A stretch of 64,000 bases of DNA from a bacterium (GTDB lineage Bacteria > Desulfobacterota > Desulfocorpusculales > Desulfocorpusculum): contig JBBFLE010000009.1 of NCBI GenBank assembly GCA_037481695.1, forward strand, positions 1 through 64,000. Reading direction: 5' to 3'. The notes beneath the pieces are model-generated. The model saw only the letters and a list, made by a program, of their open reading frames with translations, was not told where the DNA came from and did not search any database. Position 1 is the stretch's first letter; every line of letters begins with the position of its first letter. This document shows positions 40,345 to 57,278 of the stretch, piece by piece. Both the position numbers and the translations under genes were made by a program.

Positions 40345-41892
40345 TCAGACCTTGTTTTTTTGTCCTTGAGAAGGGTTTTGCCCTTCTCTTAGGGCTCTTT
40401 TTAGAACTTTTCCGGTGGGGGTTCGGGGAAGCTCATTTACGAAGAAATATTCTTTGGGGCATTTATAGCCGGCCAGCCACTTCCTGCAATGGATTTGGAG
40501 TTCTTCTGAAGAAGGAGTGCATGTCTTGGCCCCAACGATGTAGGCCACCACCTTCTCTCCCCAGCGTGGATCAGGAAACCCCACCACCGAAGCTTCTTGA
40601 ACTCCTGGATGGAGACTCAGAACCTCTTCCACCTCCCTGGGATAAATGTTTTCCCCTCCCGAGATGATCATGTCCTTTTTCCTGTCCACTATGTAGAGAT
40701 ACCCCTCGTTGTCCAGCTTCCCCAGATCCCCTGTGTGTAACCAGCCTCCTTTTAAGGCCTCGGCGGTCTCGTAAGGTCTATTCCAGTAGCCGCGCATGAC
40801 ATTGGGACCACGAACCAGTATTTCGCCCACCTCACCCACAGGAACATCCTGGTCCTTTTCGTCCACGACTCTTACCTCCACGTACGCGTGAGGCTTACCA
40901 ACACAGGCGTTCTTTCTCAGGAAATCTTTTCCAGGCAGGGTGGTGCAGTATGAGGTGGCCTCTGTCAGGCCGTAGGAATCCACCACGTCGACCCATGGGA
41001 ACCTCTCCAGGAGTCTTTCCTTGAGCGCCTGGGGAATGATGGTGGCACCTGTGTTAAAGGTCCTCAGGGAACTCAGATCCCATTTCTCAAGGTTGGGAAT
41101 TTCCATGAGGGCCGTGAGCATGGGAGGCACTGCGGGGACTCTGGTGATCTTTTCCTCCTGGATCAAGCCAAGAAGCTCCATGGGGTCAAATCTGGGTCTC
41201 AGCACCACCGTGCCACCCAAAAGAAGGGTTGCGAAACACCCTCCCATGGCTGCGCCGTGAAACAGAGGCAGCCCGTAGTAAACCACATCGCTGCCCGAAA
41301 AGCCGCCACTGACCTGTCCATTTACCGCGTTCCAAAGGAAGTTCATGTGCGTGATCACAGCCCCCTTGGGGCGACCGGTTGTACCTGATGTGTAGAGTAT
41401 GTACAGGTCTTGTTCCAGATGGGGCTCTTGGGGTGGTTCTTCCATGGCCGGGAAGCTTGCCAGTTCCTCCCAGGCCCTGATATTTTTTCCACCAGCCCCG
41501 ATACAGATGACCTCTCTAGGACCCTGTAAGCTTTCTCTGAGGGGTTCCAAGCAAGGAGCGAATGCTTCTTCACTCAGAAGCGCCACAGCACCGCTGTCCT
41601 CCAACATGTAGCGCCATTCCGGCTCGGCCAGTCTTGTATTAAGGGGCACCAAAACAGCTCCCAATCTAAACAAGGCCAAATAAGCTACCACCAGCTCCAC
41701 GCCATTGAAGAGCAATGTGGCCACCCTGTCCCCACAAGTTATGCCCAGGGATGCAAAGGCCCCAGTAAGTGACAGCACCATGCTTCGCAGTTGCAGATAG
41801 TCCACCCTTTTTTTCTGGTTGCACAAGGCCGTCTTGGTGGGATACTTCCTGGCATTACGATCCACCAGGTAAGCAATGTGTCCAGGATTCAT
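40345..41892 (-). CDS. AMP-dependent acyl-CoA ligase
   Basis: 515 aa ANL-family ligase with all motifs intact: ATP loop [42 protein letters not shown] hinge, [12 protein letters not shown], and A10 motif [11 protein letters not shown] with the catalytic Lys. It activates a carboxylic acid to its CoA thioester at the expense of ATP. Last gene of the 17-gene minus-strand cluster, overlapping the acyl-CoA dehydrogenase gene by ATGA. The substrate is unknown; a cluster with two ligases suggests that either two acids or a pathway intermediate must be activated. Confidence 0.92.
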
Positions 41893-43028
41893 CTCAAAAG
41901 CTCCTTGGCGATGATCATCTTCTGAATTTCCGAGGTTCCGCCGCCTATCTCCACCAACTTGGCATCCCTCAGGTACCTTTGCACCGGGTACTCCCTCATG
42001 TACCCATAGCCCCCGAATATCTGCACAGCATCCAGAGCCGCCCTGGTGGCCATGACAGAGGCATAGTACTTGGCCATGGAGGCCTCTTTGGTGACCCTGG
42101 CCCCCTTTTCCACCAGAGGGAACAGGGCATAGGTAAAGGCACGGCTAATCTCCAGGGAGGTAGCCATCTCAGCCAGCATGTTTCTGACAAGCTGGAACTC
42201 TCCTATGTACTTCCCGAACTGCTTTCTTTCCTTGGCATAGCGCACCGAAGCATCCAGGCAGGCTTGGGCTATGCCAATGCTGGTATTGGCTCCCAGGATT
42301 CTCTCCAGATCCAGGGTCTCGAACATGGTCTCAAAGCCTCTGCCCTCGTGTCCCAGGATCTGTTGCTGCTCCACCCTAACATCATCCATGAATACCTGGC
42401 CTGTTGGTGAACAGCGCATGCCCAGTTTCCTGAGGGGCGGACCCGTGCTCAGCCCTTTCATTCCCCTTTCCAATATGAAGAGGGTAGCCCCGCGGCTTCC
42501 CTTTGTACCCCTTTTTCTGGCCACTACCACAAAATAACTGGCTATGGGAGCATTGGTAATGAAGGTCTTGGAACCGTTTATGACAAAATGCTCTCCCTCC
42601 TGCACATAAGTGGTTCTTATGGCCAGTGCATCCGAGCCTGCCTCAGGCTCTGTCAGGCACCAACTTCCCAGCTCTTTCCCTGAGATGACAGGGGCAATGT
42701 ATCTTTTCTTCTGAGCCTCGGTACCGTACTTGGCTATGAAGTAGCAGAAGTTGTTGGTGCAAATGTTCATGGACATGCCGAAGCCAGCCGAGACCCTGCA
42801 GATCTCCTCCTTTATTATTCCGTTGGTGAGCAGATCTGCCCCGCCACCCCCGTATTTCTCTGGTATGACCGAGCCTATGAGGCCCAGTTCTCCGGCCTTT
42901 TGATAAACTTCCATGGGAAAGCGCTCTTGTTCGTCTATGTCTTCTGCTATGGGCCCCAGTTCTGCCTCAGCAAATCTTCTGGTGGAAGTACGCACCATCC
43001 TGTGGTGTTCTGAAAGGAAGAGATCCAT
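41889..43028 (-). CDS. Acyl-CoA dehydrogenase, isovaleryl-CoA dehydrogenase type
   Basis: 379 aa flavoprotein that introduces a 2,3 double bond into an acyl-CoA. Typical are [32 protein letters not shown] and [20 protein letters not shown]. The canonical C-terminal base (YEGTSEI) is replaced by GGGTSEI, while a Glu is present in [11 protein letters not shown]. This is the base position of isovaleryl-CoA dehydrogenase, so a branched acyl-CoA is the likely substrate. It lies between two CoA ligase genes and overlaps the downstream one. Confidence 0.92.
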
Positions 43029-43049
43029 GTTGTTGGTTTCATCTCCTGG

Positions 43050-44588
43050 TCAAGGTTTTCCGTGCAGCTCTCTGAGCACTCTTTTTAGAACCTTTCCCCC
43101 AAAGCTACCCCTGGGGAGTTCTTCCACAAAAACCACTGAGGTGGGTTTCTTGTAAGACGCCAGGCGGTTCCTGCAAAAAGCCAAGATCTCCTCCTGGGTA
43201 ATTTCTGCCCCTTTTTTGGGCACCACTATTGCCCTTACGGTCTGGCCCCAACGTTCATGGGGAATGCCTATTACAGCCGCCTCTTTGACCTTGGGGTGAG
43301 AGACAATCACATCCTCCACCTCTCTGGCATATATGTTCATGCCTCCGCTCTTTATCATGTCCTTGAGCCTATCCACCACATACAGATAGCCCTTTTCGTC
43401 GTAGCGGCCTAGATCACCGGTATGTAGCCATCCTCCCCGCAGGGTGGTGCGGGTTTCCTTGGGATTCCTGAAGTAGCCCTTCATGAGGGTTGGGCCCCTG
43501 ACCTGAATCTCCCCCACCATGCCTGTTTCCAAGGGCAGGTCTGTCTCAGGATCTGCTATGCGCACCTCCGTGCACATGTAAGGCCTGCCCACGCTGCTCC
43601 AATGACATGGTTCATCCCAGGGCTTCAGCACGGTGACTGCAGGGGAGGCTTCGGTAAGAGCATAAGAGCCGTACATCTGTCCTTGGGGAAAGAGCAGCTC
43701 CTGGATTTCCTTGCGAAGATCCGGGCTAAGGGCGTCATGGGTATGAAGCCAGCGTTTCATGGAAGATGTGTCATACTTCCGCACTCGCTGGACTTCCAGG
43801 AGCTTAAGCCATATGGCCGTGTTACCCACTATGAAGGTGGTTTGTTCCCTTTCCACCATGGCCAGATATTGCTCAGGATCAAAAGAGCTGCTTCCTATGA
43901 AGGTCCCCCCTGCATACATGAAGGCCAGAAACCTGCTCAGAGCAGCCGAATGGTACATCTGCATGGGGTAAAAGGTTATGTCTTCAGGGGTGGGGCAGTG
44001 GTTTTCAGTGGTGACACATATGATGTTCCACAGCAGGCTCTTGTGGGTCAGAACAGCTCCCTTGGGCACACCCGTGGTGCCTCCTGTGAAGAGGATAAAG
44101 GCATCATCTTTTTCTCTGACCACATCTGAAGGCTCCTGATCAGAGCCATGGTCCAAGAGTTTTTCCATTTCCAAGGCCGGCAGTGCGCTATCCCCGCCAA
44201 AACTTACCACTGGCTTGAGCCCACTGCATTGCTCCAGGATGGCCTGTGCCACCTCGGAAAGAGCCTTGTGGAAAAAAAAGCCATGGGGTTCTGTCAAAAG
44301 CACCTGCCGCAAGATCTCATCTTTGGTGGCCCTGGCATCCAGTGGGACCGTAACCACACCCAGCTTCAGGTTGGCCAGGTAAAGCTGCATGAGCTGGATA
44401 CAGTTCAGAGACAAAGTGGCAACCCTCATGCCCTTTTTGAGTCCCAAGCCCCCCAGGGCATTGGCCAACCGGTTCACATTGCGGTTCAATTGCTGGTATG
44501 AGAGCTTGCCCCCCTCGTCCATGACCGCGCACTTGTGTGGATATTTCCTGGCACTCCTGGAAAAGCAGCTTCCAAGGGTCATCTCCAT
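43050..44588 (-). CDS. AMP-dependent acyl-CoA ligase
   Basis: 512 aa. ATP loop LFTGGTTGVPKG, YALTEAS, HTGDLGRYDEKGYLYVVDRLKDMI and A10 motif LPRGSFGGKVLKR with the Lys in place. A second ligase in the cluster, only distantly similar to the first. Starts 10 nt upstream of the BKACE gene's downstream end and 21 nt before the acyl-CoA dehydrogenase gene, so co-transcribed. Substrate unknown; aromatic, alicyclic or branched acids are all possible. Confidence 0.92.
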   Translation of the reverse strand: MEMTLGSCFSRSARKYPHKCAVMDEGGKLSYQQLNRNVNRLANALGGLGLKKGMRVATLSLNCIQLMQLYLANLKLGVVTVPLDARATKDEILRQVLLTEPHGFFFHKALSEVAQAILEQCSGLKPVVSFGGDSALPALEMEKLLDHGSDQEPSDVVREKDDAFILFTGGTTGVPKGAVLTHKSLLWNIICVTTENHCPTPEDITFYPMQMYHSAALSRFLAFMYAGGTFIGSSSFDPEQYLAMVEREQTTFIVGNTAIWLKLLEVQRVRKYDTSSMKRWLHTHDALSPDLRKEIQELLFPQGQMYGSYALTEASPAVTVLKPWDEPCHWSSVGRPYMCTEVRIADPETDLPLETGMVGEIQVRGPTLMKGYFRNPKETRTTLRGGWLHTGDLGRYDEKGYLYVVDRLKDMIKSGGMNIYAREVEDVIVSHPKVKEAAVIGIPHERWGQTVRAIVVPKKGAEITQEEILAFCRNRLASYKKPTSVVFVEELPRGSFGGKVLKRVLRELHGKP

Positions 44589-44598
44589 GGCTTATTCC

Positions 44599-45456
44599 TC
44601 ATGGGCTGGGGTTTGACACTCCCGGTTTCAAAGGAAGGATCTTTCTGGCCTCCTCCACCGTGGCCACCTCAAAGCCCAGCTCCCGGATTATTCTGACGGC
44701 CTTTTCCACCAGTTGGGCATTGCTTTTGGCCAAAACCCCTTTTTCCATATAAATGTTGTCCTCGAAACCGACTCGGATGTTCCCCCCCAGCAGGATACCT
44801 GCTGTGCCAAGGCTAAATTGGTGGCGACCTATGCCTATGACTTGCCAAGTGTCACCAGGGGGAAGGGATTCCACCAAGGCGATGAGGTTCTTGATTGTCG
44901 GTGGGATACCGCCCAAGACGCCCATCACAAAGCTGTTCTGATAAGGAGGGGGCACAAGCGCTGGCCTCCTTATCCAGACCTCCACGTTTTGAACCATGGA
45001 GAGGTCGTAGATCTCGAACTCTGGCATTATTCCCAGCTCCGCCATGGCCTTGGCGAAGTTCTCCATCACCTCCGGAGGGTTGGGAAACAGCTTTCGGCCG
45101 AAGTTCATGGAACCTGCGTTCAGAGAAGCTGAATCAGGCCTCAATTCCTTCACGGGCCTGAGCCTCTCCTCGAAACCCAAGCCCAATGTGGAAGCTCCCC
45201 CGCCTGTGGTTATTTGAGTAATTATGGGACAACGAGCCCTTATGCCTTCTAGGTAAGCTCGAAATATATCCACCTCCGGGCTTGGCGCCCCTGTGTTGGG
45301 ATCTCTGGCATGAAGATGTACCACCGAAGCTCCTGCATTGTAGGAGCGCACGGTTTCCTCCACCACTTCCTCAGGAGTTATGGGAAGATATGGGGTTTCC
45401 TGCCTGGTGGTGACTGAGCCCGTGGGGGCCACGGTGACAATTACCTTTCTTTTCAT
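44599..45456 (-). CDS. Beta-keto acid cleavage enzyme (BKACE, DUF849)
   Basis: 285 aa zinc TIM-barrel enzyme of the BKACE family, of which Kce of lysine fermentation is the founding member. These enzymes react a beta-keto acid with acetyl-CoA to give acetoacetate and a new CoA ester. Visible are VTVAPTGSV, the zinc-binding HLHARDP, QITTGGGAS, and GGNIRVGFEDNIY with the second-shell Glu. I start it at 45456 because GGGAGG lies about 9 nt upstream. Its presence in a CoA-ester cluster suggests removal of a C2 unit from a free beta-keto acid without thiolysis. Substrate not predictable. Confidence 0.92.
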   Translation of the reverse strand: MKRKVIVTVAPTGSVTTRQETPYLPITPEEVVEETVRSYNAGASVVHLHARDPNTGAPSPEVDIFRAYLEGIRARCPIITQITTGGGASTLGLGFEERLRPVKELRPDSASLNAGSMNFGRKLFPNPPEVMENFAKAMAELGIMPEFEIYDLSMVQNVEVWIRRPALVPPPYQNSFVMGVLGGIPPTIKNLIALVESLPPGDTWQVIGIGRHQFSLGTAGILLGGNIRVGFEDNIYMEKGVLAKSNAQLVEKAVRIIRELGFEVATVEEARKILPLKPGVSNPSP

Positions 45457-45563
45457 GGACTTAAATCCTCCCTTGTTCGAGCAAGATTCTTGCAAGCACA
45501 AGGCCCAAGAATCTTCTACTCACCCCTGGTTAACATTTCAACGCCTAATGAGCCCAGAAGGGC

Positions 45564-46019
45564 TCAACCCATGGGTTTGAAGTACGCGATGTCCAAGATT
45601 TTTCCTTTTCTCTCCTGGCTGAAAACAGCTTGGACTCTCATCCCGATTCGGATCTGATCGAGCCCCACCTCATCCAGGAAGTGACACAAGCCCGTGTCTG
45701 CCCCGTCCAAACGCACGATGCCCAACACATAGGGGGGCCGCCTGGGCTGGCAATTGTTGCTATATAGGTAATGGACCACGGTGTACGCAGCCAAGGTCCC
45801 GGTGCCTGGGAGTTGGATCCATTCCTCTATTTTGCTGAAACAATCTGGGCATACTGATCTTGGTGGTGCAAAAACCTTTTGACACCTCTGGCATTTGTTC
45901 CCAAAGATGCTGGAGTTGTCCCTCAAGTGTGTGAAAAAACGGCTGGCCACTGCCCCGTACCAATTGTGGTAAGGCGCATAAAGCCTTCCGGGCACCACCT
46001 GGACGCTGGTGTCCTCCAT
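45564..46019 (-). CDS. DUF35 OB-fold protein with N-terminal zinc ribbon
   Basis: 151 aa. Zinc ribbon CQRC...CPDC (residues about 43-60) then an OB fold (GTLAAYTVVHYL, PYVLGIVRLDGADTG). DUF35 proteins bind thiolase-fold partners: ChsH2 with the aldolase Ltp2, BbsA with BbsB, and the archaeal acetoacetyl-CoA thiolase/HMG-CoA synthase complex. It follows the second DUF35 gene after 1 nt and two thiolase-like genes, so it probably pairs with one of them. The 107-bp gap before BKACE holds no gene. Confidence 0.88.
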   Translation of the reverse strand: MEDTSVQVVPGRLYAPYHNWYGAVASRFFTHLRDNSSIFGNKCQRCQKVFAPPRSVCPDCFSKIEEWIQLPGTGTLAAYTVVHYLYSNNCQPRRPPYVLGIVRLDGADTGLCHFLDEVGLDQIRIGMRVQAVFSQERKGKILDIAYFKPMG

Positions 46020-46020
46020 C

Positions 46021-46509
46021 TTACTCCTCCAAGATTTGGAAGTATTTGATATCGGTTACTTTCCCAACCCTTTCTTCATATTCCTTGAACACTGCTTCAA
46101 CCCTCAGGCCCTCCTTGAGTTTGGATTCATCCAGATTCTCGGGGCCGAGATAGTGTGTAAAAAGAACTCCTTCCTCCAGCATGAAGGTGCCGTGGATATA
46201 GGGCTCTGGCCTGAGCTGGCCTGTTTCAGGGTCCATCTGTGGATATATGACCCTCTCCCAATCCAGGAGGGTTCCCTTACCAGAAAGCGCAAACCATCCC
46301 TGGGGGAATCGGGGGGCCTCTGTGTAGCACACGGCGCACACTATCCTGGGAGGCATCAGAATCCTCCCACAACCAGGGCACCTGACCACCCAGATGGCAC
46401 CAGCTTCCTTCAGTTGTCCCAGAAATCTTCCCAGATATGGTCCTGCAGACCATCTGAATCTGATCTCCAGGGTCCTTTCCTGCCCCAGCATCTCCTCTGG
46501 CCCCTTCAT
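46021..46509 (-). CDS. DUF35 OB-fold protein with zinc ribbon
   Basis: 162 aa. Zinc ribbon CPGCGRILMPPRIVCAVC (about 44-61), then OB-fold strands (GTLLDWERVIYPQMDPETG, EGVLFTHYLGPENLD). Tandem paralogue of the downstream DUF35 gene, sequence similarity low. Two thiolase-like genes lie directly upstream, giving a two-to-two ratio that suggests two partner pairs. A 173-bp gap separates it from the thiolase-like gene at 46683; I see no gene in that gap. Confidence 0.88.
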   Translation of the reverse strand: MKGPEEMLGQERTLEIRFRWSAGPYLGRFLGQLKEAGAIWVVRCPGCGRILMPPRIVCAVCYTEAPRFPQGWFALSGKGTLLDWERVIYPQMDPETGQLRPEPYIHGTFMLEEGVLFTHYLGPENLDESKLKEGLRVEAVFKEYEERVGKVTDIKYFQILEE

Positions 46510-46682
46510 GGCTCCTCCTAGCCTGCATCATCAACCATCTGGTGGATAATGCATGGCAACTTCAAGAGATCTTTAGATAAACATCTTCATGCTTGAACCC
46601 ACTGGGACTCTCACTGGTTGCTAAATGATCCGGGCCAGGGTCCCAGAGTCTACAGAATCCCTTGTGCATGAACAGATCCAGA

Positions 46683-47843
46683 TCATTGCTTGTTGGCCGA
46701 CAATAGCACCGCCACTGTCCAGCCGCTTCCCCCCCAAGCTGTGGCAAACCCCAGGGTGGGTTTTCTTGCAATCTGGTGTTCTCCTGCATCCCCCCTCAAT
46801 TGCAAGGCGCACTCGGCCACCCTGATGAGTCCTGTGGCTCCTATGGGGTTTGTACAGACCACTCCGCCCGAGGGGTTCACTGGAAACTCCCGGTCAAAAT
46901 AAAAGGAGCCCTTTTCTTCCAGGCGCCAGGCCTGGCCCTTGGGGCAAAAGCCGTAGGCCTCCAGCCATTCCAATTCGGCCCAGGTGGAGGGAGCATATAT
47001 CTCAGCCACTGAAATCTCCTCCATGGGCCTGGAAATGCTGTTTCTGCTGAAAATCTTAGACGCAGCCATTTCCAGATCAGCCACGCTGTGTCTTCCTCCC
47101 CTGATGTACATGGCCTCCTTGTGAACAGTGACCCAATCTTTTACCCAGACGGGTTTTCGGGGACCCCTTTGTGCTGCCTGCTCAGATGTTACAACAATGG
47201 CGCAGGAGCCTTCAGAAGTTGGACACATGTCGGTCTGCCGCAAGGGAGGGATCAGATATGGAGCCTCCATGGCATCTTCCACCCGTCTTAGATCCATTCT
47301 CAGGTGCGCATGGGGATTTCTCCTTGCATGTTCGGCCAGCCTTATTCTTACCACAGAGCCCATGGCTTCCGGAGCTCCGGTTTCGCGCATGTAGTACCTG
47401 GCCTGTCTTGAGAAATAACCTATGGCCCCGGTTGTAAGCCACCTGATCCATAGGGGATCGGACACGGTCTTAAGGCCTGCCCTCGTATCCCCTTCGGATT
47501 GCTTTTCGAAACCCACGGCCACCACCGTGTCAAAGACTCCAGAGCTCACGTATTCAAATGCCACGCAAGCCAAGGTGCCCCCTGTTGTGCCTCCTGTGGT
47601 GACTCTAATACCAGGCTTGCCCACGGCACCTATGAAGTCAGCCTGCCACATGTCCTGGACGTACCTTCCCTCAAAGAGTTCCATGTTACCCACTATGAAA
47701 GCCTGCACATCCTCAATGGATATACGGGCGTCTTCTAGGGCAGCCTTGACACTTTCGGTACAGAGTTCTGCTATGTTCACATCCGGGCGTCTGGCGCAAT
47801 GAAATGACTGACCAACGCCCACTATGGCCGCTCTTCTAGACAT
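46683..47843 (-). CDS. Thiolase-fold protein lacking catalytic Cys and His (putative retro-aldolase)
   Basis: 386 aa, SCP2-thiolase/lipid-transfer type by fold: opening AAIVGVGQS, NPSGGVVCTNPIGATGL and GFATAWGGSGWTVAVLL near the end. The nucleophile loop reads VTTGGTTGG (81-89), with no Cys where true thiolases have ENACASGG. The GHPIGATG His is Asn (TNPIGATG). A Tyr stands in AEIYAPST where thiolases carry VHDCF. Similar losses occur in Ltp2, which cleaves a beta-hydroxy acyl-CoA by retro-aldol reaction with a DUF35 partner, so that chemistry is inferred. Neighbours: another pseudo-thiolase 1 nt upstream and DUF35 genes downstream. Confidence 0.88.
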   Translation of the reverse strand: MSRRAAIVGVGQSFHCARRPDVNIAELCTESVKAALEDARISIEDVQAFIVGNMELFEGRYVQDMWQADFIGAVGKPGIRVTTGGTTGGTLACVAFEYVSSGVFDTVVAVGFEKQSEGDTRAGLKTVSDPLWIRWLTTGAIGYFSRQARYYMRETGAPEAMGSVVRIRLAEHARRNPHAHLRMDLRRVEDAMEAPYLIPPLRQTDMCPTSEGSCAIVVTSEQAAQRGPRKPVWVKDWVTVHKEAMYIRGGRHSVADLEMAASKIFSRNSISRPMEEISVAEIYAPSTWAELEWLEAYGFCPKGQAWRLEEKGSFYFDREFPVNPSGGVVCTNPIGATGLIRVAECALQLRGDAGEHQIARKPTLGFATAWGGSGWTVAVLLSANKQ

Positions 47844-47844
47844 G

Positions 47845-48996
47845 CTAGAACCCCCTCTCCAAGATAATAACGCAATGGTGCTGCCCGGCCGGGCCGTAAG
47901 TGCCGTGGGCCAGGGCCAATTTGGGCTCCCCTGGCACCTGCACGGCCCCTGCCTCTTTTCTTAGCTGAAGGAAGGCCTCCAAGACCCGGTTGGCTCCTGC
48001 AACATATCTGGGGACGCCTGAGAGGAGCCCTCCTGAGGGATCAATGGGTTTAGGCCATGGGCTCTGATGCTTGGGGAGTGAAAATGCTTGAGGACCCTTG
48101 CCTTTTTCGCAAAATCCAAGTGCTTCAAGCCACAAGGGCGTCTGGTACGAGAAGTGGGACGAGAGTTCCAGCAAGTCCACTTCCTCTGCCGGGTTTTTTA
48201 TACCTGCCATCTCAAAGGCCTGTTGGGCAGCCTTTGGCAAGGCAAATGGATTCCCAAGATCCCTGTCACCCAGATTGTGATTCTCGTAGCAAGAGCCGAA
48301 TCCGGTTATCCACACCGGACGGTCCGTCAATTCCATTGCTGTTTTCTCATCTGCCAGAATCATGGCACAGGCCCCATCGCAAGGAGGCCTCATCTCCTGC
48401 TCAGTTATGGGAAAGGCCAGCATGCTGGCTTCCATCACCTGATCAAGTGTCAGAGCTTCCTTTACAGCCATCCTCTGGTTTTTTAGGCCTGCACTCCTTT
48501 CGGCCACAGCCACCCTGGCCAGGTCTTCACGAGGCAGGCCGTACCTATGCATGTATGTGCTGGCCTGAAGAGCTGCGGCCTGTATGAAATCCAATCCTAG
48601 GGGCTGCTGGTACGGGGCGTCGAATCCGAAGTTCTCTATTACCCTTGGATCCAGGACCTGTGTTTCCTTGCAGCAGGCAGTCACAAGCACCTTGCGGGCT
48701 CGGCCTGAGAGGATCTTGATGGCCCCCAGGACAACTGCATTGGCTCCATCCATGGAGACCTTCACCTCTCCAGGACCCAGATGAGCTCCTGCCACCTCCC
48801 CATGTTCCACGTCTGAAAGGGTCTTTCCATCCCAGTGATCTGCACTGCAGGTGACTATGAATTCGTAACCTTTTCTGAATTCAAGACCCGCTTGGGCAAG
48901 CACCTCTTTCACGGCAAGGTAGGTTAGCTCCTGGGGCCTCCATGAGTTCTGCTCCCCAAAAGGTGTCTGTGACACAGCCACTATGCCAACCTTCAT
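47845..48996 (-). CDS. Thiolase-fold protein lacking catalytic Cys and His
   Basis: 383 aa. Opening KVGIVAVSQTPFGEQ and closing ALAHGTYGPAGQHHCVIIL match the thiolase fold. The nucleophile loop is VSMDGANAV (80-88) without Cys, and GGLLSGVPRYVAG replaces GGxxxxGHPIGATG, so the His is Val. The pair with the next gene (1-nt gap) suggests a heteromer, perhaps with the two DUF35 proteins. Known thiolase-like aldolases and the inactive subunits of thiolase heteromers show the same kind of loss. The transporter gene dctM ends 35 nt upstream. Confidence 0.86.
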   Translation of the reverse strand: MKVGIVAVSQTPFGEQNSWRPQELTYLAVKEVLAQAGLEFRKGYEFIVTCSADHWDGKTLSDVEHGEVAGAHLGPGEVKVSMDGANAVVLGAIKILSGRARKVLVTACCKETQVLDPRVIENFGFDAPYQQPLGLDFIQAAALQASTYMHRYGLPREDLARVAVAERSAGLKNQRMAVKEALTLDQVMEASMLAFPITEQEMRPPCDGACAMILADEKTAMELTDRPVWITGFGSCYENHNLGDRDLGNPFALPKAAQQAFEMAGIKNPAEEVDLLELSSHFSYQTPLWLEALGFCEKGKGPQAFSLPKHQSPWPKPIDPSGGLLSGVPRYVAGANRVLEAFLQLRKEAGAVQVPGEPKLALAHGTYGPAGQHHCVIILERGF

Positions 48997-49031
48997 CTTG
49001 AAGACCTCCCCCCGACCAGGGTGGAATCAGC

Positions 49032-50339
49032 TCATCTTTTCATGCTGGCCGGGATCCAAAGAATTATTTCAGGAAAAATCATGCACAGTACCAGTCCCAG
49101 GGCCTGCAGGGCCACAAAGGGCCAGATGGAACGATATATGTCATCCATTGTGATTCCTCTGGGCACCACCCCTTTCATGATAAAAAGATTGAAGCCAAAG
49201 GGCGGCGTAAGATAAGCCATTTCCATGTTGATGGTGAAAAGAACGCCGAACCAAACAGGATCAAATCCCAGGGCTCCGACTACTGGAACGAATATTGGTG
49301 TGGTGAGCATTATGATCCCGGCAGGATCCAGGAACATGCCGAGGATGAAGAAGGTCAATTGCATTCCTGCCAGGACCACCCACCTGGAGACAGGCAGGGC
49401 TTCTATGGCCTCTTTTATCAGATCCGAGAAGCCCATATAGGCCAAGAGGCGGGTGAAGCAAACAGCTCCTATCATTATCCAAAGCACCATGGCAGTCAGG
49501 CTGGTGGTGGAACAAAGGGCCTGCTGAAAGCCTTTCCAAGTCAGCCTCCTGTGTACAAGAGCGCAAACAAGAGCCCCGAAAGCCCCTATGCCGGCTGCCT
49601 CGGTGGGAGTGGCAACCCCGGTGTAGATGACCCCCAAGACGCTCAATATAAGAAGAAAAGGCAAAAGGATGCCCTTGAGTACCACGAGCTTTTTCATCAA
49701 GGTGTAACGTTCCTGCACAGGGGGACCCAGATTGGGATTCAGCCAGCAACGCACTCCAACATAAACACAAAAAAGACAAGCCAGCAAAAGCCCTGGAAGT
49801 ATGCCACCCATGAAGAGCTGACCTATGGAGACCTCTGCCATGGCCCCATAAATGATCATTATCACACTGGGTGGGATGAGTATTCCCAGGGCACCCCCTG
49901 CGGAGATGGTTCCAATGGCCATCTCCTTCTGGTATCCCCTCTTGAGCATGGAGGGAAGGGCTATGAGTCCCATGCTCACGGTTGCCACAGAGCTTATGCC
50001 TGCCATGGCTGCAAACACAGCACATATCAGCACAGTGCCTATGGCAAGTCCTCCCCGCAGCCTTCCCATCCACCTGTACACTGCTTCGTAAAGCTGCTCG
50101 GCCAGGCCCGAGTGCTGGAGCAGGTTGGACATCAAAACAAACAGGGGAACCGCTATGATCAGGTAATTGGTCACCTCTGCGTAAGCTGTCTTGGGAATCA
50201 TGTAAAGTCCCTGGGGGCCCCACGTCAGAAGCGTTCCGGCTATGGCCACCCCGGCTAGGGCAAAGGCTATGGGAACTCCCATGGAGAGCATTACTCCCAT
50301 GACACCAAAGGCGAGGAGGCTCAAGAGCCAGGTGTCCAT
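49032..50339 (-). CDS. dctM: TRAP transporter large permease
   Basis: 435 aa, about 12 transmembrane segments. GVPIAFALAGVAIAGT and GGALGILIPPSVIMIIYG are hallmarks of DctM, and TPTEAAGIGAFGALV marks the second half. DctM is the ion-driven channel of a TRAP transporter and works with DctQ and the DctP binding protein encoded just upstream. Imports a carboxylate across the inner membrane using a Na+ or H+ gradient. Stop lies 35 nt before a thiolase-like gene, so transport and catabolism appear linked. Confidence 0.95.
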   Translation of the reverse strand: MDTWLLSLLAFGVMGVMLSMGVPIAFALAGVAIAGTLLTWGPQGLYMIPKTAYAEVTNYLIIAVPLFVLMSNLLQHSGLAEQLYEAVYRWMGRLRGGLAIGTVLICAVFAAMAGISSVATVSMGLIALPSMLKRGYQKEMAIGTISAGGALGILIPPSVIMIIYGAMAEVSIGQLFMGGILPGLLLACLFCVYVGVRCWLNPNLGPPVQERYTLMKKLVVLKGILLPFLLILSVLGVIYTGVATPTEAAGIGAFGALVCALVHRRLTWKGFQQALCSTTSLTAMVLWIMIGAVCFTRLLAYMGFSDLIKEAIEALPVSRWVVLAGMQLTFFILGMFLDPAGIIMLTTPIFVPVVGALGFDPVWFGVLFTINMEMAYLTPPFGFNLFIMKGVVPRGITMDDIYRSIWPFVALQALGLVLCMIFPEIILWIPASMKR

Positions 50340-50358
50340 GATCTTCCCCTGAAATTTT

Positions 50359-50898
50359 TCAGTGGCCCGGGAGATCCTCCTGGGGAGAATCTTCTTTGGC
50401 CATTATTGCCAGTATGGATTGACACAGTTTGGCTGCGGCCTGAAGGCCCAACAGCGCGCCTCCCACTGGCACCAACGCCATGGATGGAAACAGTGGAAGC
50501 TCCAAAAGGCTCATGGATCGCTTCCCCTTTTTCAAGGCATCCAGAGCGAATTCAGAGCCGTGCCACAAAAGTACTGCACAGAAAACAATGACTAATATGG
50601 AGGTAAACAAATCCACGGCGGCCCTGGTGCCCGGAGAAAACCTTCTGTAAAGAATGTCAACCCGAACATGTCGTTCCTCCAACAGTGCATATCCTCCAGC
50701 CAGAAGGGCCAGGGCCGCCAGCAAATATTGATTGATTTCTGTGGCCCAGGAAGTGGGAGATCGCAGCAGATAACGGCAGAAGACTTCCCAGACCACTGCT
50801 GCCATGATGAGCAGGTTAAGCAATCCCACCCACTGGCCTACCTGCCTGTTCAGCCTGGATATGCCGTTTATGGATTTGCGGGTCAGCTCAAGGATCAT
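50359..50898 (-). CDS. dctQ: TRAP transporter small permease
   Basis: 179 aa with four transmembrane segments (roughly 25-43, 60-78, 95-115, 140-158). Segments EVFCRYLLRSPTSWATEINQYL and ALLEERHVRVDILYRRF match DctQ, which bridges the binding protein and DctM. Lies 19 nt upstream of dctM and 9 nt after the end of dctP. Confidence 0.92.
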   Translation of the reverse strand: MILELTRKSINGISRLNRQVGQWVGLLNLLIMAAVVWEVFCRYLLRSPTSWATEINQYLLAALALLAGGYALLEERHVRVDILYRRFSPGTRAAVDLFTSILVIVFCAVLLWHGSEFALDALKKGKRSMSLLELPLFPSMALVPVGGALLGLQAAAKLCQSILAIMAKEDSPQEDLPGH

Positions 50899-50907
50899 CT
50901 GAATGCA

Positions 50908-51906
50908 TCACCTGCCCTTGTAGTAATCCTCCAGGATCTTTATGAGCTCTTTGGCTCCTGGAGAGGCTTCGGCCACCTTCTCATAGATGGGTTTACACAT
51001 TTCCTTGATCTTCTTTACTTCCTCTTCGGCAAGGGTCATGACCTTCACATTACGTTGCTTGGAGTACTCCAGGGCTTCCTGATCCCAAAGCTGACTTTTC
51101 TGGGCACTGAGCTCAAAGATTTCCTTTCCGGCTCTTTCCAATGCTTCTTTGGCCTTGGGGGAGAGCTTTTCCCAGACCTTGAGATTCAGCCACACCACGG
51201 TCAGGGAAGGAGTGTGAAATCCAGGCAGGATTATATGATCCACCACTTCATCATACTTGTAGGTCTTGATGGTATAGTAGGGGTATATGGTGCCTTCCAC
51301 CGTGCCCATTTTCAGGGCGGTGTACGCCTCTGGCCCTACCAAGGCCACAGGGGCAGCTCCTATGGCCTGGGCCAGTTGGCCATCCACGCCAGTGGCTCTG
51401 AGCTTCTTACCTTTGAAGTCATCCACCTTGGAGACTGGAAACTTGGTCATGGCCCCCATGGAGCCTGTCATTATGGGGTACAGATAGTAGGCCTGGTGTT
51501 TGGCCGAGAACTCTCGCATCTTCTTGAGGTACCCATGCTTGGTATATATCTCCAGCACATCTTGGGGGGTTCGCCAGTTCAGGGGCAGCCACTCCACCTT
51601 GGACTCGGGTATTGTGCCGCCGTAGTATATGGCTGCAGCATAGAGCCCCTCTATCATTCCCTTGCCCAAGGCATCTAGGCCCTCTTCGGCGCTCACTAAC
51701 TGGCCCGGCCAGAAGAGCTTGAATTCCACTTCCCCGGCGCTGTACTCCTTGACTTTTTCTGCCAGGAGCTTGAGGAGTTCTGGGCCATAGGTCTTCTCAG
51801 GATAAACCGATTGGACCCTGATCACCGTGGAGGCCCAAACAGGCCAATTCAATACCAGGATCCCAAGGATTGAGACCAGTCCAAGCACCACTCTTGCCTT
51901 TTTCAT
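50908..51906 (-). CDS. dctP: TRAP transporter periplasmic solute-binding protein
   Basis: 332 aa from the ATG at 51906, where GGAGGG lies 5 nt upstream; upstream in-frame codons are not expected in the family. Signal peptide (hydrophobic 5-26, cleavage near VWAS). The mature part has FWPGQLVSAEEGLDALGKG, FKGKKLRATGVDGQLAQAIGA with the conserved carboxylate-binding Arg, and GTVEGTIYPYYTIKTYKYDEV. The ligand should be an organic acid. An XRE-cupin regulator is encoded directly upstream. It heads dctPQM within the catabolic cluster. Confidence 0.93.
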   Translation of the reverse strand: MKKARVVLGLVSILGILVLNWPVWASTVIRVQSVYPEKTYGPELLKLLAEKVKEYSAGEVEFKLFWPGQLVSAEEGLDALGKGMIEGLYAAAIYYGGTIPESKVEWLPLNWRTPQDVLEIYTKHGYLKKMREFSAKHQAYYLYPIMTGSMGAMTKFPVSKVDDFKGKKLRATGVDGQLAQAIGAAPVALVGPEAYTALKMGTVEGTIYPYYTIKTYKYDEVVDHIILPGFHTPSLTVVWLNLKVWEKLSPKAKEALERAGKEIFELSAQKSQLWDQEALEYSKQRNVKVMTLAEEEVKKIKEMCKPIYEKVAEASPGAKELIKILEDYYKGR

Positions 51907-51991
51907 AGCTCCCTCCTTTCTCTGGTATGGCTCGTATCCCTCACGCACAAGACCCAATTTCAGGAGTCTGTTCATTGGCAGACCCCCATGC

Positions 51992-52573
51992 TCAGGAAAA
52001 CCAAGGCGGCGAATTGACCATGATAAGTACAGACTCTTTGGGACTGAGGTTTCTCCACTGGTGAGGCAAGGCAGCCTTGAAGTGAATCGTATCCCTGCGG
52101 TTGAGCACATAGAGGCTGCCTCCTATGACAAACTCCACCTTGCCCTTGTAACAGTAGACCAACTCCTCGCCCGAATGGGAAAGAGGCCCGCCCCTCACTT
52201 TCCCACCGGGCTCTATGCGAAGCACATAGGCATCCAAAAGAGGATCCTTGAGGGGCCTGGCGATACTCTCTATGATGGCACCTATCTCTGGGTTGGCAGA
52301 TTTTTTCCTCTGCTGCCATCTCACCAGGCGCACCTCTGGTGGTTGCTCTTCATCTTCCAAAAAGTAGTGGAGGGACCGGTTAAGGCCCCTGGTGATCTTC
52401 ATGAGCACCAATATGGAGGGCACCATCTTTCCGCTTTCTATCTTTTGGACCGTACTGGGAGCCACCCCTGCAAGCTGTCCGAATTCCTTGAGAGAAAGGC
52501 CTGATTCCTGGCGGACTCTCTTTATCTTCTCTGCCAGTCTCTCCATTATCTTTTCGGGTTTGTCCTTGGCCAT
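51992..52573 (-). CDS. XRE-family regulator with C-terminal cupin domain
   Basis: 193 aa. Helix-turn-helix (about 14-68: IKRVRQESGLSLKEFGQLAGVAPS...) then a C-terminal cupin_2 barrel (about 118-190: GGPLSHSGEELVYCYKGKVEFVIGG). Regulators of this shape, such as PuuR-like proteins, often bind a small ligand in the cupin. It lies in the middle of the 17-gene cluster, just before dctPQM, so it probably controls uptake and degradation of the same substrate. Confidence 0.88.
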   Translation of the reverse strand: MAKDKPEKIMERLAEKIKRVRQESGLSLKEFGQLAGVAPSTVQKIESGKMVPSILVLMKITRGLNRSLHYFLEDEEQPPEVRLVRWQQRKKSANPEIGAIIESIARPLKDPLLDAYVLRIEPGGKVRGGPLSHSGEELVYCYKGKVEFVIGGSLYVLNRRDTIHFKAALPHQWRNLSPKESVLIMVNSPPWFS

Positions 52574-52612
52574 ATTTCTTCCTGTTTTTAGGTCTCAGCC
52601 CTGATATTCAAC

Positions 52613-53755
52613 TCAGATCCCAAGTTCCTGGGCTATTATCATGTGGTGTATCTCGCTTGTGCCTTCGGTTATGGTGAAGAGCCTTCCGTCCCTCCAGAAG
52701 CGCTGGATGGGGTACTCCATCATGTATCCGTACCCTCCATGGATCTGCATGGCCTGGGACAACACCTCCTGCAGTGTCTCAGAGCAAAAAAGCTTGACCA
52801 TGGAGGCCTCCTTCATGACCCTGGCTCCCATGTCGCTCAATCTTGCCACCCTGTAGGTGTAAGAGCGCATGATGTCTATCTTCATTGCCATACTGGCCAG
52901 CTTGAAGCGGTTCACCTGGAACTTTCCTATGGGCTTTCCAAACTGAACCCTTTGCTGAGCGTATTGGAAAGCCGCTTCGTAGGCTGCCTGCGCAACACCG
53001 GTACAACGGGCCCCATAGGTTATCCTTCCAGACATGAGGGTTTCCCTTATCTGGGCAAAGCCTCCTCCTTCCCTCGGCCCTATGCGGTGTGAGACAGGCA
53101 CCTTGCAGTCCTCAAAAACCAGCTCCCCTGTCTCTGCAGAGCAATTGCCCACCTTCCTGAGTTTGCGGGCCACGGTAAATCCCGGAGTGCCCTTCTCAAC
53201 CACAAAAAGGTTTATGCCATGGGCTTTGCGCGACGGATCCACAGAGGCTGCTACAACTGCAAAGTCGCATATGGGTCCGTTGGTTATGAACATCTTGCTC
53301 CCGTTTATGATGTAATACTGTCCTTCTCTTACGGCTCTGGTCCGGATAGAGGCTGCATCAGAACCCACATCCGGCTCGGTCAGGGCAAAGGCCCCTATCT
53401 TCTCCCCTCTTATGGCCGGGTAAAGGAATCTTTCCTTTAGTTCCTCAGAGCCAAAACGGTATATGGGTTCTGTGGCCAGGCCTGACTGGACGAGCACCCC
53501 TCCTGCGATTCCCGCACACACACGGCAAAGCTCCTCCACCAAAATGCACTCCGTGACCTTGTCGGCTCCCGCTCCTCCCATTTCCACCGGATACCTGACG
53601 CAGAGATATCCCAACTCCCCCATTTTTCTAAACAGGGAGATGGGGAAGGTCTCCTTTTCCTCTGCCTCCTCTACCAGAGGGGCTACCTCCTTTTCTACGA
53701 AACTGCGCACGGCTTTCTTGAATATTCTTTGTTCCTCTGTGAGCTCAAGATCCAT
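52613..53755 (-). CDS. Acyl-CoA dehydrogenase (canonical type)
   Basis: 380 aa. MDLELTEEQRIFKKAVRSF, ALTEPDVGSDA, NGSKMFITNGP, FGKPIGKFQVNRF and IHGGYGYMMEYPIQRFWRDGR. The base is TEGTSEI with Glu at the standard short/medium-chain position, unlike the isovaleryl type encoded at 41889. I prefer the ATG at 53755 (first residues MDLEL); an ATG seven codons earlier is in frame. The gene overlaps the upstream DUF35 stop slightly. It would oxidise an acyl-CoA from the pathway. Confidence 0.92.
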   Translation of the reverse strand: MDLELTEEQRIFKKAVRSFVEKEVAPLVEEAEEKETFPISLFRKMGELGYLCVRYPVEMGGAGADKVTECILVEELCRVCAGIAGGVLVQSGLATEPIYRFGSEELKERFLYPAIRGEKIGAFALTEPDVGSDAASIRTRAVREGQYYIINGSKMFITNGPICDFAVVAASVDPSRKAHGINLFVVEKGTPGFTVARKLRKVGNCSAETGELVFEDCKVPVSHRIGPREGGGFAQIRETLMSGRITYGARCTGVAQAAYEAAFQYAQQRVQFGKPIGKFQVNRFKLASMAMKIDIMRSYTYRVARLSDMGARVMKEASMVKLFCSETLQEVLSQAMQIHGGYGYMMEYPIQRFWRDGRLFTITEGTSEIHHMIIAQELGI

Positions 53756-54185
53756 CAGCCTTGCCTGCCTCCTCATCCAGGACGAATTTGTAACCGTAGC
53801 GAACTATTCCTTCCTGATCGTAGAGTTTCCTGAACACAGCCCTCACAGCAGCGCCCACCTTCAGTTGCTGTGGCTCACAATCTGTCAACTGGGCCACCAC
53901 CCTGGCCCCCTCTTGGAGTTCAACCACTGCCACCAAGATGGCACCGGTCATGGTCTGTTGTTCATCGAATTCGCTGGGGGCTCCCCCTTTGGCTATGACC
54001 GTGTAAGTGAAAACACGGCCTCGACCGCAGAGCCTTTCCCATTGAAACTCTCCCCGGCCGCACTCCAGGCAGACCATTCTGGCAGGTACATTTATGCTCC
54101 CGCAGCTCAAACAACGGGGCTCTTCCAGCCTGTAGCGTTCTCTCAAGCTGGCCGCAAATATGGGAAGAGAAACATAGGAACTCAT
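53745..54185 (-). CDS. DUF35 OB-fold protein with zinc ribbon
   Basis: 146 aa. Zinc ribbon CLSCGSINVPARMVCLEC (about 25-42) followed by OB-fold strands GRVFTYTVIAKGGAP and GAILVAVVELQEGARVVAQLTD. Lies 21 nt after the HMG-CoA-synthase-like gene and close to a true SCP2-type thiolase, the same three gene types that form the archaeal thiolase/HMG-CoA synthase/DUF35 complex. Probably scaffolds those two enzymes. Confidence 0.88.
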   Translation of the reverse strand: MSSYVSLPIFAASLRERYRLEEPRCLSCGSINVPARMVCLECGRGEFQWERLCGRGRVFTYTVIAKGGAPSEFDEQQTMTGAILVAVVELQEGARVVAQLTDCEPQQLKVGAAVRAVFRKLYDQEGIVRYGYKFVLDEEAGKADGS

Positions 54186-54206
54186 GGTGCTCCTCCAAAA
54201 AAGAGC

Positions 54207-55226
54207 TCAAGCATAAGGCCTGAAACTCAAAAAGCCTCTCATCTTGAGATAATCCGCGTAGCTTCTCTGTCTACCTCCCCTCAACATCTCCTCCAAGACA
54301 GGTCCCTTGCCCTTGGTACCTTCAATCGCCTGCCCAAGAACCCAACTCATCACATCCACTCCAGAACCGTACGAGGCCACAAGGATCCTTTGTCCTGAAT
54401 CCAGGCTCTCTAGCGCCTGAACCATCCCCAGAAGTACAGCCGCTGTGCCTGTGTCTCCCAATCTTTGGGTCACGGAAAGGATCTTTCCCTTATCCACACC
54501 TAGCCTGCCTGCCAATCTTTGGGCCGTGATTCCATCTGAGTCAGGCAAGACCATTGAATGGAATTCATGGGCTGAAAAACCCAGCCTTTCCAAAAGCCCC
54601 CTGACCCCTTCCAAGACAGATTCGGTAAGCTCATCCTGGCGAAGCTCCAGGTCCTGAACAAATCTCTCTCCCCTTCTTCGGAATCTTTCTCCGAAGGTCT
54701 CTATTGATAAACTCTCCACCCCTTCCATGAAGGTGGCTCTTTCATCCGGTGCTATTACAAAGGCAACTGCCGCAGCCCCGAAGCCGTGTTCCAGGCTGCT
54801 GGAGGGATGAGCCAGGGGGGCATCAGAGGCCACCACCAGGCAAGGCTTTACCCAGCAACTTGAAAACTCAATGCCAGCCAAGAGGGCCAGTGTGCCTGCC
54901 CTGGGAGATCCCCCCAGCTCCACTGCCCTGAGCCTGGGATTCCCGCTAAGGGCAGAGACCAGGCTGGAAACATTGGGTTTTTCTTCATAAGGACCTGAGG
55001 TGGTCGCCAAGAAAACTGCCCCCATCTGTTCTGCCTGCATGCCTGCCCTTTCCAAGGCTTGGCGCGCTGCTTCCACTGCCATGGTTACGATGTCCTCGTC
55101 ATATCCAGGAAAGGACTTCATGTTTATGGCCGGGGTACTGAGACTTCCCCAGAATTTCTTGATTTCCACCAACTCCAATCTGTTTGGCGGCACATAGGCG
55201 CCGTGGGACACTATACCGACGCGCAT
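54207..55226 (-). CDS. HMG-CoA-synthase/KAS-III-like protein without catalytic Cys
   Basis: 339 aa from the ATG at 55226 (GGGAGG 7 nt upstream). Thiolase superfamily: IVSHGAYVPPNRL, DIVTMAVEAARQALERAG and GFGAAAVAFVIAPDE resemble archaeal HMG-CoA synthases. The nucleophile segment reads ELGGSPRAGTLALL (103-116): the family EFACKAGT Cys aligns by eye with Pro108 next to Ser107. The later active-site HxP segment also lacks His (MVLPDSDGI). So it is either a non-catalytic partner or catalyses other chemistry such as retro-aldol cleavage. Its neighbours are a DUF35 protein and a full thiolase. Confidence 0.85.
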   Translation of the reverse strand: MRVGIVSHGAYVPPNRLELVEIKKFWGSLSTPAINMKSFPGYDEDIVTMAVEAARQALERAGMQAEQMGAVFLATTSGPYEEKPNVSSLVSALSGNPRLRAVELGGSPRAGTLALLAGIEFSSCWVKPCLVVASDAPLAHPSSSLEHGFGAAAVAFVIAPDERATFMEGVESLSIETFGERFRRRGERFVQDLELRQDELTESVLEGVRGLLERLGFSAHEFHSMVLPDSDGITAQRLAGRLGVDKGKILSVTQRLGDTGTAAVLLGMVQALESLDSGQRILVASYGSGVDVMSWVLGQAIEGTKGKGPVLEEMLRGGRQRSYADYLKMRGFLSFRPYA

Positions 55227-55257
55227 GCAAAATCCTCCCCTGCCCCAAGAGCTGATC

Positions 55258-56427
55258 TCATTTAGGAGCCCTGAAAACATGTACCACAGCAGTTCCCCCA
55301 GAGCCTCCTACGTTATGGGTAAGCCCGAATCTGGCCCCACGCACCTGACGCAAAGGCTCCATCACATCCCCTCTTAGTTGATGGACCATCTCGCAGATCT
55401 GCCCTATTCCGGTGGCACCTATGGGATGGCCTTTGGCCTTCAATCCTCCAGAGGGATTCACTGGTCTTGGGCCATTGATGGATGTGATGTTGTCTCTTAT
55501 GAGAAAACCACCCTCTCCGTCCTTGCAGAATCCCAGATCTTCATACGCCATGATCTCCGCAATGGTGAAGCAATCGTGAACCTCCGCCACCTGGATCTCA
55601 TCAGGACCCACTGATGCCTCATGGTAAGCTTCAAGGGCAGCCTTGCGTGCAGCAGCAAGTCCTGTTAAGTCCTTGCGATCATGTATGGCCAGGTAATCTG
55701 TGCCGGCCCCTGAGCCCATCACCCACACAGGGCGATCCGTATATCTGAATGCATCTTCCCGGCAACACAAAATGGCCACCGCGGCCCCGTCGGTTATGGG
55801 GCATGCATCAAAAACCGTCAAAGGGTCTGCCAGCATGGGGGAGTTCAGAGCTCTATCCAGATCCAGGGCAAAGCGTAACTGGGCTTTGGGATTGTGCAGG
55901 GCATTGGCGTGGTTCTTGACAGCCACGCCCGTTATCCACTGTTTGAGGGTTCCATGTTCATGCATGTGTCTTCTGGCCAACATGGCATAGATCCCAGGAA
56001 AATTTGTGCCTGCCAACCTCTCCCATTCCACGTCGCCTGAGACCCCAAGCCACAGACGGTTTCTTTCCCTTGGCAAGTCACTCATTTTCTCTATGCCTCC
56101 AGCCAGGGCCAAACGGCAGGCGCCAGAGCGTATGGCCAGCACTGCGTTGCGGAAGGCAAATCCCCCGGAGGCGCAAGCATTCTCCACATGATGAGCGCTT
56201 ATGCCCACGAGCCCCACGGTCTCACACAAGAGAGCGGCCTGGTTGCCCAGTTGCCCCCCGCCTGTGGAAAGGGTCCCTATCCAGGCTTCCTGGATTTCTT
56301 TGGGATCCAGCCCTTTTTCCACATCCTGGAGCGCTTCCTGGAAGGCCTCGAAGAACAGGGACTTGAGGTTTCGCTTGGGAAACAGGCCAAAAGGGGTCTG
56401 CCCCACTCCTATGACCGCCACTTGCAT
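55258..56427 (-). CDS. Acetyl-CoA acetyltransferase/SCP2-type thiolase (active-site Cys present)
   Basis: 389 aa. VAVIGVGQTPFG, nucleophile HHVENACASGG with Cys85, VHDCFTIAEI, and GGLKAKGHPIGATGIGQ with His all intact; the end HNVGGSGGTAVVHVF has Ser instead of the second Cys, as in SCP2-type thiolases. It can therefore carry out thiolysis of a 3-ketoacyl-CoA or the reverse condensation. It lies between the isomerase gene (32-bp gap) and the HMG-CoA-synthase-like gene, and is the only complete thiolase in the cluster. Confidence 0.92.
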   Translation of the reverse strand: MQVAVIGVGQTPFGLFPKRNLKSLFFEAFQEALQDVEKGLDPKEIQEAWIGTLSTGGGQLGNQAALLCETVGLVGISAHHVENACASGGFAFRNAVLAIRSGACRLALAGGIEKMSDLPRERNRLWLGVSGDVEWERLAGTNFPGIYAMLARRHMHEHGTLKQWITGVAVKNHANALHNPKAQLRFALDLDRALNSPMLADPLTVFDACPITDGAAVAILCCREDAFRYTDRPVWVMGSGAGTDYLAIHDRKDLTGLAAARKAALEAYHEASVGPDEIQVAEVHDCFTIAEIMAYEDLGFCKDGEGGFLIRDNITSINGPRPVNPSGGLKAKGHPIGATGIGQICEMVHQLRGDVMEPLRQVRGARFGLTHNVGGSGGTAVVHVFRAPK

Positions 56428-56459
56428 CTTGATTTACCCCCGAAAAATTGGGCTCTTTC

Positions 56460-57236: not shown

Positions 57237-57278
57237 TGGGGAGCCTCGCATGCCAGTGGGTGTTTATAGCCGAGCGGA

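Follow-up and report, generated by a model that had tools for sequence, protein, structure and literature searches.

A probable Ltp3-Ltp4-kind acyl-CoA lyase encoded by two Cys-less thiolase-fold genes and two DUF35 genes in Desulfocorpusculum

Results

A block of four minus-strand genes at positions 45564-48996 of a 64,000-nucleotide stretch of Desulfocorpusculum DNA (contig JBBFLE010000009.1, positions 1 to 64,000; hereafter the window) encodes two thiolase-fold proteins, A and B, and two DUF35 proteins, D1 and D2. We propose that A, B, D1 and D2 probably make up a hetero-oligomeric retro-aldolase of the Ltp3-Ltp4 kind, which would cleave beta-hydroxy, beta-branched acyl-CoAs. A (47845-48996, 383 amino acids) lies on the Ltp4 side and is presumed to be a non-catalytic partner, and B (46683-47843, 386 amino acids) lies on the Ltp3 side and is presumed to be catalytic; the assignments draw on Pfam, motifs, tree and structural model, and for B also on the fold comparison. 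Both proteins match Thiolase_N and Thiolase_C_1 above the curated cut-offs. D1 (46021-46509, 162 amino acids; zinc ribbon CxxC...CxxC) and D2 (45564-46019, 151 amino acids) each join an intact zinc ribbon to an OB fold, matching zf-ChsH2 at 27.2 and 27.6 bits and OB_ChsH2_C at 27.3 and 59.1 bits, respectively, again above the curated cut-offs. A first-pass annotation of the window had described two thiolase-fold proteins without the catalytic Cys and His, paired with two DUF35 proteins, and the open reading frames, Pfam, alignment and models all confirm this. Its statement that the DUF35 genes follow immediately holds for D2, one base behind D1, but fits D1 only loosely, since this gene lies 173 bases behind B; A and B are separated by one base.

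The window also encodes an intact thiolase (55258-56427) in which the Cys, the HDCF motif and the GHP His are all preserved, and the active sites of A and B were compared with it. The Cys is replaced by G84 in A and by G85 in B, and the His by V328 and N332, respectively; where this thiolase has HDCF and Ltp2 has YDHF, A reads SSHF and B reads YAPS. Because both thiolase catalytic residues are lost, neither Claisen chemistry nor thiolysis is likely to proceed by way of an acyl-enzyme. That the pair is an ordinary or BbsAB-like thiolase whose catalytic residues have moved elsewhere is very improbable, the least likely of the readings considered here: the two thiolase domains and the presence of BbsB (7pyt, Z 51.1) among the closest folds of B speak for it, but neither thiolase Cys position of B holds a Cys, and B reaches 101 bits against a cut-off of 750 with the BbsB profile. 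For the same reasons (G85 and the profile score), membership of the BbsAB family was rejected, and the likeness to BbsAB drawn in the first-pass annotation falls away. The benzoylsuccinyl-CoA thiolase BbsAB (7pxp) shares the fold and a zinc-ribbon OB partner with the block; it works through Cys thiolysis, whereas A and B have no Cys at the thiolase position.

What B has in place of the thiolase residues is strictly conserved. All 80 B sequences have G85, G88, Y283 and N332, and 76 of them keep P285. In the Ltp2 structure (6ok1), Y294 lies within YDHF and Y344 closes the stretch GGQLGEAY. Y283 of B is aligned with Y294, and N332 occupies the thiolase His position near Y344, although its exact column is ambiguous owing to a one-residue deletion in B. 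The YDHF Tyr serves Ltp2 as catalytic base, and in Sal it is essential (PMC12329534). A comparison of active-site Tyr positions with Ltp2 had been suggested; the two agree for Y283, but the YDHF motif and the second Tyr have no counterpart in B. A lacks a conserved Tyr: its Tyr position holds Ser in 43 and Tyr in 19 of 77 sequences, and its His position Asn in 37, His in 17 and Val in 10. Since the matching positions vary in A, B alone carries the conserved site and the roles of the two subunits are probably unequal, contrary to the earlier treatment of the two proteins as alike. A has conserved residues of its own, namely D53, D56, T59 and S61, each present in 66 to 70 of 73 sequences; in the A model they fall between the strand 46-50 and the helix 62-68. 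In Sal, the corresponding beta2-alpha2 loops of both protomers are described as sitting between the two pockets (PMC12329534), and the position of the conserved residues suggests that this loop of A may reach the B site of its partner.

The predicted structures of A and B are both thiolase folds, with a mean pLDDT of 92.6 and 90.7, respectively. The top structural match is 6esq for B (Z 54.6) and 6et9 for A (Z 53.2). At the level of these models, the fold comparison does not settle the mechanism.

Other functions are known for thiolase folds of this kind, and chain-length-factor type ketosynthase partners are a Cys-less precedent. It is conceivable, though unlikely, that the A-B complex is not a lyase and instead decarboxylates acyl-CoA or only binds it, in the manner of such ketosynthase partners or of the trypanosome SCP2-thiolase-like protein, TbSLP. 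TbSLP is reported to act on malonyl-CoA by a very slow decarboxylation (PMC12329534), and B has no recognised general acid. On the other side, the distinct Tyr-Asn site is invariant throughout the B sequences, and branched sterol side chains reportedly require the relatives Ltp3 and Ltp4.

The nearest described system appears, from sequence, to be Ltp3-Ltp4. In a maximum-likelihood tree of 54 rows, the B proteins form a clade of 24 rows with the Ltp3-like proteins of Nocardia and Tsukamurella (support 100/99), and the A proteins form a clade of 24 rows with the Ltp4-like partners of the same genera (support 99/99). True thiolases, the Ltp2-like protein of Aromatoleum and a divergent second pair of the window genome fall outside both. 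In Streptomyces clavuligerus, Tsukamurella and Nocardia farcinica the gene order is a DUF35-DUF35 fusion, an A-like gene (346-359 amino acids) and a B-like gene (388-390 amino acids). In published work, Rv3522 is ltp4 and Rv3523 is ltp3 (PMC6429209), and Saccharopolyspora hirsuta has the order Rv3521 homologue, ltp4, ltp3 (F1721_32655, 32660, 32665; PMC9782250, PMC8708139). The match of this order with the actinobacterial loci is the ground for the labels Ltp4-like and Ltp3-like, together with steroid neighbours such as a steroid 3-ketoacyl-CoA thiolase in Tsukamurella. In all three actinobacterial fusions (L065-L067) the first half lacks the zinc-ribbon Cys pattern, and the second half has it in Streptomyces only.

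According to a review, Ltp3-Ltp4 is a heteromeric aldol lyase: branched sterol side chains are first carboxylated and hydrated, the lyase then cuts them at C24-C25, and the carboxylate released needs thioesterification (PMC6678751). The mycobacterial system (Rv3523-Rv3522 with Rv3521, acting on the C24-branched sterol side chain) and the block of the window have in common two different thiolase-fold subunits in tandem, two DUF35 domains, membership of the same clades and the same Tyr-Asn site in the Ltp3-like subunit. They differ in that the DUF35 domains of the window are separate genes, both with zinc ligands, and in that the neighbours are TRAP and BKACE genes, with no indication of a sterol. 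The substrate type first suggested, a beta-hydroxy, beta-branched acyl-CoA, fits this best-matching system. The primary work on Ltp3-Ltp4 is reportedly that of Wilbrink in 2012. A partial literature search by titles and abstracts found no Ltp3-Ltp4 homologue reported in these anaerobes.

Ltp2-ChsH2, to which the first-pass annotation had likened the block, is not its closest system. Like the block, Ltp2-ChsH2 (6ok1) combines a thiolase fold with a DUF35 partner and has a Tyr at the YDHF position; unlike it, Ltp2 is a homodimer with one type of DUF35 protein. Membership of B in the Ltp2 family was rejected on YAPS in place of YDHF, N332 near the Y344 position and the tree placement, and membership in the Sal family on the tree placement and on P285, which stands at the catalytic Cys position of the YDCY motif. 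Sal-Shy (9myr) shares with B the fold, the DUF35 partner and the Tyr of YDCY, but Sal has a single aldolase subunit and its catalytic Cys304 is a Pro in B. A strict steroid side-chain aldolase of the Ltp2/Sal type, acting on steroid-CoA, therefore seems improbable: the common fold (Z 44.6 for 6ok1 and 44.3 for 9myr), the DUF35 partners and the shared Tyr position would be expected of it, whereas the missing YDHF and second Tyr and the place of the Ltp2-like protein in the tree would not. A protein of Aromatoleum aromaticum EbN1 plasmid 2 (L069, 7986-9589) carries the annotation of a thiolase, yet it shares YDHF and a Tyr with Ltp2 and has a DUF35 gene for a neighbour; judged by sequence, it looks like an Ltp2-type aldolase.

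The arrangement of the block is widespread. Twelve aligned B proteins served as query for a scan of named genomes, from which the best 80 matches were kept; it gave at least 79 loci, a lower bound rather than a census. They span about ten bacterial and archaeal lineages, from Desulfobacterota and other former Deltaproteobacteria, Chloroflexi including Dehalococcoidia, Acidobacteria, Spirochaetes, Actinobacteria and Proteobacteria to Schekmanbacteria, Bathyarchaeota, Jordarchaeia and one Euryarchaeote; isolates with the module include Desulfatibacillum alkenivorans DSM 16219 (L122) and Pseudomonas japonica. In 76 of the 79, B is directly preceded by A, and in the remaining three B is at a contig end. 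Two DUF35 genes stand beside the pair in 73 loci and three in one; two loci, on cut contigs, have a single DUF35 gene, and three have none, L093 being the only one of these three with full flanks. Over a narrower span in 83 loci the counts are 74 with two, four with one and five with none. With A upstream of B in 76/79 and two DUF35 genes in 73/79, the arrangement is not a chance one. The A-B part of it recurs in most of the 20 same-phylum stretches around A-like matches. A clear B is present in 49 of 395 genomes of the phylum: the B profile at 1e-100 gave 53, and the four weakest (G045, G221, G362 and G373) were discounted, as they score about as the divergent second pair does. A search with A at 1e-20 hit 163 of the 395, a loose figure that includes other thiolases.

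Over 77 loci the distances among A and among B proteins are correlated (r 0.63), and none of 999 permutations was as high (best, 0.12), which fits obligate partners, though joint transfer would give the same. In a DUF35 tree of 65 sequences, D1 belongs to a clade of 27 rows (support 100/99) with one member from each of 27 loci, and D2 lies outside it. In the D-A-B-D layout, the DUF35 gene behind B is of the D1 type, as is the first gene after B where both DUF35 genes follow the pair.

The block is part of a series of minus-strand acyl-CoA genes (40345-57251). Directly downstream of D2 is a beta-keto acid cleavage enzyme (BKACE; 44599-45501, PF05853, 1.2e-101), followed by an AMP-binding acyl-CoA synthetase (43050-44588), an acyl-CoA dehydrogenase (41889-43028) and a second AMP-binding acyl-CoA synthetase (40345-41892), the last three assigned by Pfam. 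Upstream, on the same strand, are three open reading frames which we take to be the DctM-like large membrane subunit (49032-50339, 35 bases upstream of A), the DctQ-like small membrane subunit (50359-50898) and the DctP-like solute-binding protein (50908-52110, true start probably about 51910) of a TRAP transporter. TRAP genes adjoin A-B in two relatives from the same family, with orthologous DctP-Q-M in L045 and clearly different TRAP genes in L046. The substrate range of TRAP systems points to small soluble acids, so that the importer kept with the module in these relatives suggests such a substrate, which also speaks against a steroid-CoA. Beside the TRAP genes is a possible regulator of the operon (51992-52573), presumably of the XRE-cupin type; in L104 and L105 similar genes stand ahead of A-B.

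Among 83 loci, an acyl-CoA dehydrogenase gene is found near the module in 40, an enoyl-CoA hydratase in 29, an acyl-CoA synthetase in 27 and BKACE in 18, of which 17 have it on the module strand. The degradative neighbours, namely synthetases, acyl-CoA dehydrogenases, hydratases and the importer, bear on the direction of the reaction. A complex working in the making direction, by aldol addition of an acyl-CoA enolate to a ketone, is a slim prospect, a shade below that of the steroid aldolase: retro-aldol reactions are reversible and the DUF35 architecture is common to complexes of the HMG-CoA-synthase type, but such neighbours are those of breakdown. A biotin carboxylase, expected for a carboxylation route, was found in the same operons in none of ten long neighbours tested. 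Away from A-B, on contig C1 of the window genome (L161, 6691-11811), genes for an enoyl-CoA hydratase, BKACE and two acyl-CoA carboxyltransferases are contiguous and are perhaps a carboxylation route for branched acids. A DsrA gene of the host scores above its cut-off, thus the host probably reduces sulfate or sulfite.

Related units occur elsewhere in the window and genome. The archaeal thiolase/HMG-CoA synthase/DUF35 complex (6esq) and PhlABC are, like A-B-D1-D2, multi-subunit thiolase-superfamily complexes with DUF35, and PhlA is a Cys-less subunit; they differ from it in a partner of the KAS III fold and in an active thiolase Cys that is retained. A second unit of the window (53745-56427) resembles these complexes with a dead KAS III partner: it consists of a DUF35 protein (53745-54185), an HMG-CoA-synthase-like protein (54207-55280), whose stretch for the expected Cys reads GGSPRAGT and holds none, and the SCP2-type thiolase used above as reference. 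On contig C25 of the window genome (L043, 6538-8892), a couple of DUF35 genes accompanies the divergent second pair, in which the B-side protein shows Y-D-P and G-N-P and scores 652 bits against PRK06065. The open reading frame at the window start (1-1032) reads like an insertion-element integrase or transposase.

Discussion

From gene anatomy, conservation, family relations and predicted fold, we infer the following scheme. A and B most likely form a thiolase-type dimer with one DUF35 protein on each (D-A-B-D), which would be a pseudo-symmetric counterpart of the Ltp2 or Sal dimer with its two flanking DUF35 domains. B would provide the working site, in which Y283 deprotonates the tertiary beta-hydroxyl; the bond between C-alpha and C-beta would then break with no acyl-enzyme, and the acetyl- or propionyl-CoA enolate would be held near N332 and the glycine-rich loop that replaces the Cys. 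A would serve as a degenerate partner that shapes the B site. In the pathway, the TRAP system would import a carboxylic acid and the acyl-CoA synthetases would activate it; after desaturation by the acyl-CoA dehydrogenase and hydration, the resulting tertiary beta-hydroxyacyl-CoA would be the compound that A-B-D1-D2 cleaves. HMG-CoA lyase releases a beta-keto acid. If the carbonyl product here were likewise a beta-keto acid, BKACE could react it with acetyl-CoA, which would yield acetoacetate and the CoA ester required.

The aldolase reading of the first-pass annotation thus holds in its core, through the Cys-less thiolase fold, the DUF35 partners, the invariant Tyr and the catabolic acyl-CoA neighbourhood, but not in its choice of Ltp2-ChsH2 and BbsAB as models. 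Several points weigh against the lyase we propose. The general acids Y344 of Ltp2 and C304 of Sal are replaced in B by Asn and Pro, so that the acid protonating the enolate is the unexplained part of the mechanism, and the fold of B is closer to the true thiolase of 6esq than to Ltp2 or Sal. The four-gene block has no hydratase gene, the nearest in the window being at 56460-57251, and the link with BKACE is seen in a minority of loci, 18 of 83, a count that has no matched control. Joint transfer of the operon could also explain the co-divergence of A and B. With respect to Ltp3-Ltp4, the published evidence we draw on is genetic and second-hand, and identity to the Nocardia proteins is low (29% for A with the Ltp4-like and 38% for B with the Ltp3-like protein). 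The latter proteins score 750 and 596 (Ltp3-like and Ltp4-like) with the NCBIfam subfamilies NF006180 and NF005924, whose Ltp3 and Ltp4 labels are ours from gene order, whereas B reaches 361 bits against a cut-off of 514 and A 144 against 419; we therefore file A-B as a sister variant of Ltp3-Ltp4.

A broader proposal is speculative, and we give it clearly less than an even chance: A-B-D1-D2 may be how anaerobes in general deal with beta-branched acids, namely by a heteromeric, half-of-sites acyl-CoA lyase whose B subunit borrows the missing general acid from the conserved beta2-alpha2 loop of A and whose beta-keto acid passes to BKACE. If so, lyase and BKACE together would take the place of thiolysis with branched or ring acids, and the A-B clade may hold the missing gene for lyases known by activity only. 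One of these is (1-hydroxycyclohexyl)acetyl-CoA lyase (EC 4.1.3.35), whose product is cyclohexanone; a partial literature search by titles and abstracts found this lyase named nowhere.

Quaternary beta-carbons block ordinary beta-oxidation, and to our knowledge the route of anaerobes past such branch points is largely open. The conserved four-gene module in Desulfobacterota, Dehalococcoidia, Acidobacteria and archaea provides a candidate enzyme for this step. It would extend the little-studied Ltp3-Ltp4 lyases beyond sterols, and would correct the annotation of A- and B-type proteins as thiolase-domain or lipid-transfer proteins.

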